A DNA stretch of 64,000 bases from Candidatus Zixiibacteriota bacterium (GCA_024278935.1 JAJRSF010000053.1:1-64000); one strand, 5' to 3'; shown: positions 54,630 to 58,826, counted from the first letter of the stretch. The notes: generated by a model not told the origin, from the letters alone. Numbers and translations: made by a program.

Positions 54630-55520
54630 TTATCCGAGTAATGCCCCTATTTGATTTAGTAGTCCTGACGAGATAGCACCGCCGACTGCACCTTCAAGAA
54701 TAGTTCTCATTGAAGATAGGCATTCTTTTCTTATACTACTTTTTGGATTAGAAGAACAAAGCTGTGATTTGATAGTGTCAATATCGGCTTTTAAATCTGA
54801 CTTTGAAATGCTATCTACTTCAAGCTCACTAAAGTTCTTTTCAACTTCACTGATGAAGTTTTTAACAGTTTCAAAGTCAATATCTATTTGAATTATTTGT
54901 TGAGTAGAATTTTGATTTCCTTGTTGAATTTGAGAATCAATCATATTTTCAATGTTGAATGTAGTGAGAGTAGCTGTTTGTTTTTCTTCTTTTGAAAAAG
55001 TCATGCCCTCACCTAAGATATCATCTTTTTCAAGCTTTAGAGTCCATTCAAGAAGAATGTTTCTAACAGCATCTATAACACCTTTAACATGAACTGGATT
55101 GATAAAAAAATATGGTTTAGCAGTAAAATCCATATTTTTCATAAGGAATGATTCTATCTCTTGAGGGATTGGCATGTGAAGCATTTTATTATTCTTACTT
55201 GAATCTTCTAATAACTCTATTTCTGCCATTGCTTGAGTATTCGCTCTGTTAGTTAATAATTTGTTTGTCTTTGGTTCTGAAATGATAATTGGATACCAGT
55301 TACGATAATGATGATTCCAATATTTAATTTCTCCATGAAACTGTCTATATTCAGGAGCTTCGTCTTCATTTTTGTAGCCATTCAACTCGTTATTGATCCA
55401 TACTTCAATATCATTAATATCAAGTTTTGTAGCGACGACTAAAGCCTTACGTAATAAATCAGAAGTTTTAATATTTGAATCTAAACAATCTCGTTGTAAT
55501 TCTAACACTAACCCAGACAT
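54630..55520 (-). CDS. AbiTii domain protein (candidate antiphage factor)
   Basis: 296 residues. The N-terminal about 200 residues match the AbiTii pattern: LVLELQRDCLDSNIKTSDLLRKALVVATKLDINDIEVWINNELNGY, then EYRQFHGEIKYWNHHYRNWYPIII. The middle has a glutamine- and asparagine-rich linker (SQIQQGNQNSTQQIIQIDI), then a helical segment and a hydrophobic end (ILEGAVGGAISSGLLNQIGALLG) that may insert in membranes. AbiTii belongs to abortive-infection families of uncertain mechanism. It stands alone with no toxin-antitoxin partner visible. The gap 54380-54629 upstream of the previous gene shows nothing else. Confidence 0.8.
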   Translation of the reverse strand: MSGLVLELQRDCLDSNIKTSDLLRKALVVATKLDINDIEVWINNELNGYKNEDEAPEYRQFHGEIKYWNHHYRNWYPIIISEPKTNKLLTNRANTQAMAEIELLEDSSKNNKMLHMPIPQEIESFLMKNMDFTAKPYFFINPVHVKGVIDAVRNILLEWTLKLEKDDILGEGMTFSKEEKQTATLTTFNIENMIDSQIQQGNQNSTQQIIQIDIDFETVKNFISEVEKNFSELEVDSISKSDLKADIDTIKSQLCSSNPKSSIRKECLSSMRTILEGAVGGAISSGLLNQIGALLG

Positions 55521-55699: not shown

Positions 55700-55728
55700 T
55701 TGACAACTGCACATTTGTGCAGTATCAT
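55700..55728 (+). promoter_or_regulatory. Promoter with SOS-type palindrome between -35 and -10
   Basis: TTGACA (55700-55705), 17-base spacer, TATCAT (55723-55728). The spacer is almost wholly the palindrome CTGCACATTTGTGCAG (55707-55722). TGCAC-N4-GTGCA within it matches the LexA box I recall for Fibrobacter succinogenes (TGCNC-N4-GTGCA). A repressor bound there would block RNA polymerase directly. It controls the miniprotein and helicase genes. The rest of the 55521-55836 gap holds no gene. Confidence 0.65.
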
Positions 55729-55836
55729 GGATTCACAAGAAATAAACGACCCTGTGCCTTTAAAATTGAGCAGGTTTTCAGGGGTTCTGGTTGGTCTCAC
55801 AAACGAGGCTTTCCATACAAATAGGAGAATGAAATC

Positions 55837-56049
55837 ATGGATGAACAAAGAGGAATCGGCTATCTGAAAAACGAAATGTTCGAAGATTATTCGCACCCAT
55901 TTGGAGCCTTCACAGAAATCGGCAAAGCAACAGCAGACAACTACGCATATATGAATGCCTCGACCTGTCCTGATTGCGGTGGCGGTATGGTCAAGATGGG
56001 TGGTTGTTCGTCGTGTCAGTCATGCGGATTGAGTTCGTGCAGCATGTGA
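55837..56049 (+). CDS. Small cysteine-rich protein resembling the class II ribonucleotide reductase tail
   Basis: 70 residues with an AGGAGA ribosome site. The last 28 residues read STCPDCGGGMVKMGGCSSCQSC-like (six cysteines in CPDCG, CSSC, SCG and a final SSCS), the pattern of the thiol tail that closes B12-dependent ribonucleotide reductases. No catalytic reductase domain is attached: the N-terminal part (MDEQRGIGYLKNEMFEDYSHPFGAFTEIG) is short. It lies behind the SOS-like promoter. A redox or zinc-binding accessory protein in DNA precursor synthesis is possible (inference). Confidence 0.65.
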   Translation: MDEQRGIGYLKNEMFEDYSHPFGAFTEIGKATADNYAYMNASTCPDCGGGMVKMGGCSSCQSCGLSSCSM

Positions 56050-56102
56050 TAGAAAGTTTCAGAATTTAGAGAAGTAGCAACTATTGAAAGCGGGCGAGAA
56101 AT

Positions 56103-57482
56103 ATGAAAGTGGGCGATTTAGAAAAATACGGAATACCGTCTCGGGTCATTGAGGCTTGGAGAACACGGCAAGGAGAATATCTTCTGCCGGTTCAGCAAAC
56201 AGCGGTACAGAAAAAAATGCTCGGACAACCGGGCGAATGGCAAAAGCGAAAGGAGTATAATATGATTGTCTCTGCACCAACATCATCGGGGAAATCATTT
56301 TGTGCCGAAATGTCGGCTATCCAGTCGCTTGCTATGCGTCGCAAAGTTGTCATGCTCTTTCCACTAAAATCTCTTATTGAAGAAAAATTCAGACAGTTTG
56401 ATAAAACCTATAAACCTCTCGGCATCAAAACTCTTATTGTCACAGGCGATCATCCTGAAAACGATTCTCTCTTTCTCGCCGGTGATTATCACATTGCTCT
56501 TTGTATTTATGAAAAATTTGACAGTTTCCTGACGGCATCATTGGACATCTTAAAAAATATCGGACTGGTCGTTGTTGATGAAATTCAAACAATCGCTGAA
56601 CCGGGACGAGGAGCCGTTTTGGAACAGCTTCTGACAAAAATTAGATGCTCGGTATATACACCATCAATTCTTGGGCTTTCGGCGGTTATAGGCGATGACA
56701 GCTCGTCGGCAGGCAAACTGGCATCATGGTTGGATGCGATTGTTGTGGAAGAGCGGATACGCCCTGTTGAGCTTATTCGTGGTGTGGCAACTGAAGGGAC
56801 CTATCGGTTCCGTTCCTTTAATGGCAATGTCGATGGGGAAGAGCCGTTTGAATCTGCCGATGTCACCGGCGATACTTTCGAGATGTTCACCAAGCAAGTA
56901 AAGGCAAGTGAGGGGTCGACACTGATATTTTTGAAATCTCGCATGGAAACAATGAACGCTGCTTTAAAATTAGCATCGGTGTCAGATTGGAAAGAAGCAA
57001 CCAACGCAATCGAAAAATTATCACAGGAAGAACCATCTTTTCTAATACGTTCACTCAAGCGAGCCTTGAGCCGTGGGGTTGCATTTCATAATTCAGATCT
57101 GACTTCAAAACAACGTGAAATAGTAGAGCAAGCCTTTATAAATAAAGAGATTAAAGCGATATTCTCAACAACTACTTTAGCTATGGGAGTCAACCTTCCT
57201 GCCGATACAGTTTACTTGGAAACGCTTAAATATTCTGTTGGCAAGTACGGCGGCAAGCCGTCGCTTGTGCCTGTGAGCAGAGCGGAATTTGACAATATGA
57301 CCGGGCGTGCCGGACGGCTGTTAGCTAGCTCTTCGCAAACAAGCGGAAGTCAACCAGTCGGAAAAGCTATTATGATGGCACAGTCTGAATTTGATCGGGA
57401 TGTTCTTTGGTCCTCTTATATCTCCTGCGAGCAGTCGGAAGAATCTGAGTCAGCTTTTTATTCCCGTCCTATTGAAGATTAG
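56103..57482 (+). CDS. Ski2-like/Hel308-like DExH helicase, N-terminal part before in-frame TAG
   Basis: 459 residues. Both RecA lobes are present: Walker A SAPTSSGKS, motif Ia LFPLKSLIEEK, DExH box VVDEIQTI, motif III LGLSAVIG, motif IV-V region FHNSDLTSKQREIVEQAF and STTTLAMGVNLPADTVY, motif VI MTGRAGRLL. This is superfamily 2 Ski2-like (Hel308/PolQ-type), DNA or RNA unwinding. Translation stops at TAG 57480-57482 directly after YSRPIED; the frame continues. Expression behind the SOS-like box favours a DNA-repair role (inference). Confidence 0.85.
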   Translation: MKVGDLEKYGIPSRVIEAWRTRQGEYLLPVQQTAVQKKMLGQPGEWQKRKEYNMIVSAPTSSGKSFCAEMSAIQSLAMRRKVVMLFPLKSLIEEKFRQFDKTYKPLGIKTLIVTGDHPENDSLFLAGDYHIALCIYEKFDSFLTASLDILKNIGLVVVDEIQTIAEPGRGAVLEQLLTKIRCSVYTPSILGLSAVIGDDSSSAGKLASWLDAIVVEERIRPVELIRGVATEGTYRFRSFNGNVDGEEPFESADVTGDTFEMFTKQVKASEGSTLIFLKSRMETMNAALKLASVSDWKEATNAIEKLSQEEPSFLIRSLKRALSRGVAFHNSDLTSKQREIVEQAFINKEIKAIFSTTTLAMGVNLPADTVYLETLKYSVGKYGGKPSLVPVSRAEFDNMTGRAGRLLASSSQTSGSQPVGKAIMMAQSEFDRDVLWSSYISCEQSEESESAFYSRPIED

Positions 57483-58826
57483 TTGCTCAACATGGTTTCG
57501 TCAGGCTTAATTCGGAGTAAAAATAGCCATGATGCCGAAGCTCTGTTTGCCAAAACATTTTGCGGGCATCAGAACGGTGGCATGGCGAATGATTTTTCTG
57601 CTCTGTTTGAGCAGTTGATTATGCTTGGTTTGGCTGTTGAAAATACAGAGACAGGTTTGTTGTCGATTACGCCATTTGGAAGAGTCACCGCAAAATATAA
57701 TCTGTCAGTCAGCGAAGCAACATATTATAGATATACCGTGAGTCAGAAAACTCCTGAGTCTGACTTCGGTTGGTTAGTGCTTGCGCTAAGTGGTTCGGGC
57801 TGGATGCTTCCGCCATCAATGTTAAGTCGTCATGAACAGTTGTCGGGAGCGCCACTTCGGATGCTCTATCAGGAATATGATAATTACACCGATGAAGCGA
57901 CCTTGCTCTTGGGTGAGAATTACAAACGGAAACCACTTTCGTTTCGTCAGATTGCTTCTTTAAAAGCAGTCCTGCTTCTTGAGCAATGGCGAAAGTTGGT
58001 CTCGGTGCAGTCTTTGGAAGAACGCTTTCAAATGCATCTTGGGCAGATAGTTTCACTGGGGGAAACAGCGGGACACCTTTTGTCGGCTCTGTCGGAGTTG
58101 ATGCAATCAGAGGAGCGGGATATTTCGCTTAAGAAAAAACTTGCCGATTTATCCTTTTCGGTTCGGTTTGGACTGCCTGCTGAGTTTCGTGATGTGTATG
58201 GAAGTTTTGGAGATTTATTAAGTCGATCAGATTTTGCTATTTTAAAAAATGCGGGTATTGTGAGTTTGGATGAGTTCTGCTTTATGGATGAGTCCACCAA
58301 AGAATTACTTCTTGGAAAGAAAGATAAGTTGGTGAAAATCAACGAGAAAATAGAACTAGTTAAAGAGGAGGTTCAGATGGAATCTAGAACCAACAATGTA
58401 GTAGCGAATGATGCAGGTATGATGTCAATGATGTTCTCCGAGCCGGAAATGATTGAAATTGACGGGTCGTATGAGAGCGAACGGTATTTGATTAAAGTGA
58501 ACGGTTGTCCTGTTCGTTTGACAGGGAAGTCGTTTAAGTATTTTGTGAAACTGGCATGGTCTCGCTTGTATGGGGAGTCCGGTTGGATTTACAAAGAAGA
58601 GATCGAGAACGGTTTTAACCAGGCGAGATATTTGTATCGCATGAAAAATGAAGTCGGATCTGGTTTAAATTCTAACTGGTCGATTTTTGAAAATAATCGC
58701 TTAGGCTATTATCGTTTGAATGTCGAGCCATCGAAGATTAAAATCAATATGGAAAATATTAAAAACCATCCTGACTATGAAGTCCGTATGCTGATTGAAT
58801 CAGGCAAGATGAACAATTTTAATTAA
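57483..58826 (+). CDS. Ski2-like helicase, C-terminal part after in-frame TAG
   Basis: Same frame, 448 codons, beginning LLNMVSSGLIRSKNS, which is the winged-helix that follows the RecA lobes in Ski2-like helicases. Then a helical ratchet-like part (EATYYRYTVSQK ... LLEQWRKLVSVQSLEERFQMHLGQI), a helix-hairpin-helix segment (DFAILKNAGIVSLDEFCFMDESTKELLLGKK) and a C-terminal winged-helix DNA-binding-like domain (LTGKSFKYFVKLAWSRLYGESGWIYKEEI ... GYYRLNV). No ribosome site at the first ATG (57492). Best taken as one 907-codon gene. Confidence 0.8.
   Translation: MLNMVSSGLIRSKNSHDAEALFAKTFCGHQNGGMANDFSALFEQLIMLGLAVENTETGLLSITPFGRVTAKYNLSVSEATYYRYTVSQKTPESDFGWLVLALSGSGWMLPPSMLSRHEQLSGAPLRMLYQEYDNYTDEATLLLGENYKRKPLSFRQIASLKAVLLLEQWRKLVSVQSLEERFQMHLGQIVSLGETAGHLLSALSELMQSEERDISLKKKLADLSFSVRFGLPAEFRDVYGSFGDLLSRSDFAILKNAGIVSLDEFCFMDESTKELLLGKKDKLVKINEKIELVKEEVQMESRTNNVVANDAGMMSMMFSEPEMIEIDGSYESERYLIKVNGCPVRLTGKSFKYFVKLAWSRLYGESGWIYKEEIENGFNQARYLYRMKNEVGSGLNSNWSIFENNRLGYYRLNVEPSKIKINMENIKNHPDYEVRMLIESGKMNNFN

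Follow-up and report, generated by a model that had tools for sequence, protein, structure and literature searches.

LexA as a rule regulates its own gene, LexA regulons commonly but not always include recA, and the LexA box of Fibrobacter succinogenes is TGCNC-N4-GTGCA, which the operator sequence described below fits. Archaeal Hel308 and HELQ act on forks or broken ends, as is established for those families. SOS regulons with clade-specific boxes are already known (e.g. PMC8565304), and Hel308 was stated in 2024 to be absent in bacteria (PMC12278908). The class II ribonucleotide reductase (RNR) of S. nassauensis carries in its tail cysteines 920, 923, 933, 936, 939 and 945, four of which are proposed to bind zinc and two to form a redox pair (PMC5704485). 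Our literature searches found nothing on LexA in Zixibacteria and nothing relevant that links Hel308 with LexA.

The locus examined here lies in a window of 64,000 nucleotides, the whole stretch of DNA analysed, from a Candidatus Zixiibacteriota genome. It comprises the following features, numbered from the first base of the window:

55700-55705, plus strand: -35 element TTGACA (the sixth base is A in 85 of the 108 distinct promoter windows; TTGAC is set by the search pattern).
55706-55723, no strand assigned: predicted LexA-type operator ACTGCACATTTGTGCAGT, occupying the whole spacer, with its core CTGCACATTTGTGCAG at 55707-55722.
55723-55728, plus strand: -10 element TATCAT, separated by 17 bp from the -35 element.
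55823-55827, plus strand: ribosome-binding site AGGAG of the miniprotein gene, from the sequence.
55837-56049, plus strand: miniprotein gene (70 aa), an ORF whose orthologues in relatives also lie between the box and the helicase.
55966-56040, plus strand: six-cysteine array CPDCGGGMVKMGGCSSCQSCGLSSC of the miniprotein, of the class II RNR tail type by cysteine spacing, NCBIfam and hhalign.
56103-58826, plus strand: Hel308/HELQ/Pol-theta-type SF2 helicase gene, 907 codons, interrupted here.
57480-57482, plus strand: in-frame TAG that interrupts the helicase gene; both relatives of the genus that were compared have TGG (Trp) at this codon.
57885-58163, plus strand: Hel308 domain 4, the archaeal helicase ratchet domain PF21280 (28.0 bits, cut-off 27).
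58440-58823, plus strand: C-terminal OmpR/PhoB-like winged-helix domain, absent from Hel308 (model pLDDT 88.5).

The segment 55700-55728 reads TTGACA-ACTGCACATTTGTGCAG-TATCAT, confirming the original prediction of TTGACA-17-TATCAT with a palindrome in the spacer. The palindrome, ACTGCACA-TT-TGTGCAGT, has 8-bp arms and a 2-bp gap, and its final base is shared with the -10 element. TGCAC-N4-GTGCA occurs exactly once in the window, where no second copy had been noticed, and once in the whole 3.4-Mb assembly. The window contains 7 perfect palindromes with 8-bp arms and a 2-bp gap, where its composition predicts about 1.6; the palindrome by itself is not significant, and it is conservation that gives it significance. 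Its presence across relatives rules out a chance palindrome.

This conservation was measured with the pattern TTGAC-N3-TGNNCA-N2-TGNGCAGTA, allowing at most one mismatch and with the reversed pattern as control. Phylum-wide, the search returned about two sites per genome, while the control returned nearly none. Among 54 genomes of the family there were 85 promoter-anchored boxes, 44 of them before the helicase operon, 40 before lexA and 1 elsewhere; neither type of site was found in five fragmented family genomes (69-88% complete). The final T of the -10 hexamer, a base outside the search pattern, is kept in 104 of the 108 distinct promoters. At the family loci the promoter-operator is followed by the cysteine-rich miniprotein gene and then by the helicase gene. 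As judged by these pattern matches, the helicase operon and lexA are the main genes that carry the box across Zixibacteria.

The genome encodes a LexA (TIGR00498, 208.8 bits against a cut-off of 111) whose translation shows the cleavage site VGSVPAGSP (Ala-Gly) and the catalytic motifs GESM and TVKR (Ser/Lys dyad). With its HTH, cleavage site and dyad, this LexA appears canonical and functional. Its own gene, one of the places where the original prediction had suggested searching, is preceded by the same promoter with a degenerate operator, TTGACA-A-CTACACAAATGAGCAG-TATAAT, so that the operator TTGACAACTACACAAATGAGCAGTATAAT sits upstream of lexA in the same genome. Beyond this genome, the box precedes an imuA-like gene adjoining imuB in 7 of the 9 family genomes examined (loci L319, L321, L322, L323, L325, L326 and L327), with promoters that are not TTGACA-anchored; imuAB appears to be missing from the window's genus, and the box predicted near imuB-like genes is found in relatives but not here. 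In sister families the box stands before lexA, which is followed by a gene for an 82-aa protein and, in several genomes, by dinB; loci L197, L198, L199, L200, L201 and L202 look like operons of lexA, a conserved protein of 82-90 aa and a dinB-like polymerase. Stand-alone dinB genes in relatives are also preceded by the box, as is lexA of Candidatus Eisenbacteria, and in a Planctomycetota MAG (L237:3295-3319) the same promoter-operator lies before umuD-like and umuC-like genes. Since the box precedes lexA, imuA-like, dinB and umuDC-like genes, there is a high likelihood, on sequence grounds, that it is the LexA box of these bacteria. The presence of LexA, the shared promoter-operator at lexA and the boxed SOS genes of relatives thus speak for the predicted LexA-repressed DNA-damage unit.

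The regulon is not that of a classical SOS response. The box had been predicted near recA, and none was found upstream of recA in any of 30 genomes tested; nor does one lie upstream of dinB at C48, the only Y-family polymerase match of this genome. Sites in the window's genome were sought by pattern searches, and the unanchored pattern, with as many as three mismatches allowed, gave 15+11 matches, against 13+11 for the reversed control. Among these matches, the sites at the helicase operon and lexA alone looked real. A third match, at two mismatches, falls within an aminotransferase-like ORF and was rejected as an operator. The LexA regulon visible in this genome would accordingly comprise two operators where ten or more boxes before DNA-repair genes had been anticipated; a threshold of ten boxes does not define a LexA operator. 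Separately, in four other Zixibacteria genomes LexA-type promoter-operators precede Panacea/SocA-like genes, assigned by eye (L190:443, L203:276, L205:321 and L208:193), which are candidate SOS-controlled toxin-antitoxin units.

From the observed anatomy of promoter and operator, its phylum-wide conservation, the sharing of the operator with lexA and SOS genes and the family assignments given below, we infer how the locus might work. LexA would bind the promoter spacer and block RNA polymerase, and after DNA damage RecA filaments would trigger LexA self-cleavage and allow the operon to be transcribed. The first product, a miniprotein of 70 aa related to the C-terminal 26 residues of class II RNRs, would supply a zinc/thiol function; the second would be a Hel308-class 3'-5' helicase with a winged-helix domain, expected to act on stalled or broken forks. 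The helicase operon and lexA would together form the core SOS regulon of the phylum, to which imuAB or dinB would be added in some lineages and from which recA would be left out. We hold it very probable, as the best explanation of the whole, that 55700-55728 is a sigma-70-type promoter with a predicted LexA operator as its spacer and that it places an operon of miniprotein and Hel308-class helicase under LexA control. We count against this explanation that recA and this genome's dinB lack the box, which is not the classical SOS set, that one subclade retains the box and the helicase while the miniprotein is missing, and that the helicase scores 194 bits where the Hel308 equivalog model, NCBIfam NF040935, has its cut-off at 1200.

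The miniprotein had been predicted to be a reductase tail linked to dNTP chemistry. The first part of this description stands: the pattern CxxC-x9-CxxCxxC followed by a sixth cysteine is present in all 68 miniprotein homologues with a readable core and matches class II RNR tails, but the link to dNTP chemistry is by homology only. The best NCBIfam matches are C-termini of B12-dependent RNRs (E 4.7e-5), and hhalign relates the miniprotein to the NrdJ tail of this genome with a probability of 94.6%, the NrdJ sequence compared consisting of a head and a tail piece, of which the tail alone aligned. Within the genus the miniprotein has a low dN, and AGGAGA is kept upstream in two of three same-genus relatives (L003 and L010). 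The main NrdJ of this genome (G000:C24) keeps an intact tail of its own, which rules out that the miniprotein makes up for a tail lost from a truncated reductase. NrdJb proteins have 150-220 aa and are fused or adjacent to the NrdJ catalytic subunit, whereas the 70-aa miniprotein lies beside a helicase.

The miniprotein might alternatively serve the helicase in a structural role, as a zinc ribbon unrelated to ribonucleotide reduction, a reading to which we give slightly less than an even chance. Its gene adjoins the helicase and not a reductase, the main NrdJ has its own intact tail and the N-terminal 40 residues of the miniprotein vary freely, all of which speaks for such a ribbon. Nevertheless, a purely structural role sits less easily with the fixed spacing of all six cysteines in 68 of 68 homologues, including the equivalents of the redox pair of the NrdJ tail.

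The second gene had been called a Ski2-like helicase, an assignment that the profile, Foldseek and PF21280 results bear out and narrow to the Hel308/Pol-theta type. A profile built from eight relatives aligned along some 700 residues with crystal structures of Hel308 (E 3e-104, 353 bits), against about 240 bits for Brr2-type and Pol-theta helicases and 88 bits for HamB. The top seven Foldseek structural matches were all Hel308, the global model being weak (pTM 0.50); the domain packing of this full-length model was left unused. RecA1, RecA2, winged helix and ratchet domain 4 all occur in one chain. PF21280 matches at the helicase's coordinates in 89 of 132 phylum genomes, and among 14 named control genomes it matches in the four archaea only. 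As the NF040935 score lies below the equivalog cut-off, we call the helicase Hel308-like and not Hel308. The C-terminal domain of about 125 residues found its best Foldseek matches among response-regulator DNA-binding domains (E 0.01-0.4, TM about 0.5), and the protein is best described, from its sequence and predicted fold, as a helicase of the Hel308/Pol-theta type with an added C-terminal winged-helix domain. The helicase is present in 127 of 132 phylum genomes. Its identity reaches 79-80% in the closest genomes of the same genus and 61% in a third genome of that genus, lies mostly at 50-58% across the family and is lower beyond; a gene that is near-universal and whose identity falls with kinship fits a vertically inherited core gene. 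A phage origin was rejected, phage matches being weak and below 30% identity except for one two-piece match at 30.2%. Elsewhere, plasmid-borne fusions of about 1000 aa from Bradyrhizobium, Hymenobacter and Manganitrophus (L329:721-3735, L330:724-3774 and L331:721-3747) join a caspase (Peptidase_C14) to a Hel308-like helicase and are possibly damage-triggered death or defence proteins.

Of the two genes predicted downstream of the operator, the miniprotein ORF and the helicase are both present, but the helicase is not one open frame: the TAG divides it into 459 and 447 codons. Because of this nonsense codon, helicase activity in the sequenced genome is doubtful, and gene loss may be under way in this strain. 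The whole unit might even be a decaying pseudogene in this genome, the helicase having been lost through TGG -> TAG with the promoter and miniprotein left behind. Such decay would agree with the fact that the TAG was seen in no other family member. However, dN/dS relative to the nearest relative is 0.12/1.42 (~0.09) before the TAG and 0.16/1.30 (~0.13) after it, and since dN is far below dS on either side, both halves must have been under selection until recently and any loss must be recent. The operator, the miniprotein and both halves of the helicase are also intact, and one-base deletions elsewhere in the assembly suggest base-level errors. These occur in a second class II RNR gene (G000:C11:26594-28743; L297, L303 and L305), which shows two one-base A-run deletions against a relative, one of them directly before its six-cysteine tail. 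They are probably assembly errors, and a base-level assembly error at the TAG is therefore possible, with the qualification that TGG -> TAG is a base substitution, unlike a slip in a homopolymer. Taken together, these points make decay of the unit possible but, in our view, unlikely.

Much less probable is a role in defence against phages, in which the helicase would resemble HamB of Hachiman and be kept under SOS control. HamB models do match the helicase core (about 1e-29 to 2e-31), HamB is functionally like Hel308 (PMC12278908) and an AbiTii-domain gene adjoins the operon. On the other hand, patchy defence genes are not distributed like this helicase, which 127 of 132 genomes carry and whose inheritance follows kinship, and the archaeal-type Hel308 match of 353 bits far exceeds the 88 bits for HamB. 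The partner gene has no PADLOC match, so there is no HamA, and the loci of relatives showed no AbiTii; a defence island is ruled out on these two counts. The AbiTii-domain gene itself, of the abortive-infection type (window 54630-55520, minus strand), is probably an unrelated newcomer.

Least probable of all is that a different dimeric repressor, related to the XRE or S24 family, controls lexA and the helicase operon while LexA has a different box, as might be argued from the sequence-based assignment of the box to LexA, the lack of a box at recA and the existence elsewhere of a non-LexA damage regulator, DdiA (PMC12288472), but which is hard to reconcile with a box directly upstream of lexA in 40 family genomes and in Eisenbacteria and before imuA-like, dinB and umuDC-like genes as well.

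If the operon is LexA-controlled, as we favour, an uncultured phylum gains a defined SOS box, together with a regulon that is close to minimal, and a Hel308-class repair helicase is placed in bacteria under predicted LexA control, against the statement in PMC12278908. What is surprising is that a Hel308-type helicase would be the principal conserved LexA target, with a free reductase-tail protein adjoining it and recA outside the regulon; the locus would exemplify an SOS system that retains a helicase and drops recA. It also yields a 29-bp candidate operator and a small partner protein of redox type in which the cysteines are fixed. Going further, the Hel308/Pol-theta-type helicase could be the phylum's principal LexA-controlled repair enzyme, co-expressed with a detached reductase tail that acts in trans on class II RNR. 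We regard this extended reading as distinctly improbable; if it were true, one SOS operon would couple fork remodelling to dNTP supply.

Compared with known systems, the helicase shares with HamB of Hachiman (PMC12278908) a Ski2/Hel308-like core and a link to DNA damage, but it has no HamA partner, is core and not patchy, and is much nearer to Hel308. The miniprotein has the six cysteines of the NrdJ CRD and NrdJb (PMC5704485), arranged as CxxC-x9-CxxCxxC plus one, with a last gap of four residues in both the miniprotein and this genome's NrdJ, against five in S. nassauensis. It differs from them in being free-standing, 55-75 aa long and beside a helicase, in an operon without a reductase. With archaeal Hel308 (Hjm), HELQ and the Pol-theta helicase domain the helicase has in common the RecA1-RecA2-WH-ratchet order, a full-length profile match and PF21280, whereas here it is bacterial, predicted to be LexA-regulated and extended by a C-terminal winged-helix domain, at about 25% identity and far under the Hel308 equivalog cut-off. 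As in LexA/SOS regulons described elsewhere, lexA would be autoregulated, the palindromic operator lies within the promoter, and imuA-like, dinB and umuDC-like genes stand under one box in relatives. The predicted regulon departs from them in its box, TGNNCA-N2-TGNGCA, in its exclusion of recA and in having, besides lexA, a Hel308-type helicase operon as its most conserved target.
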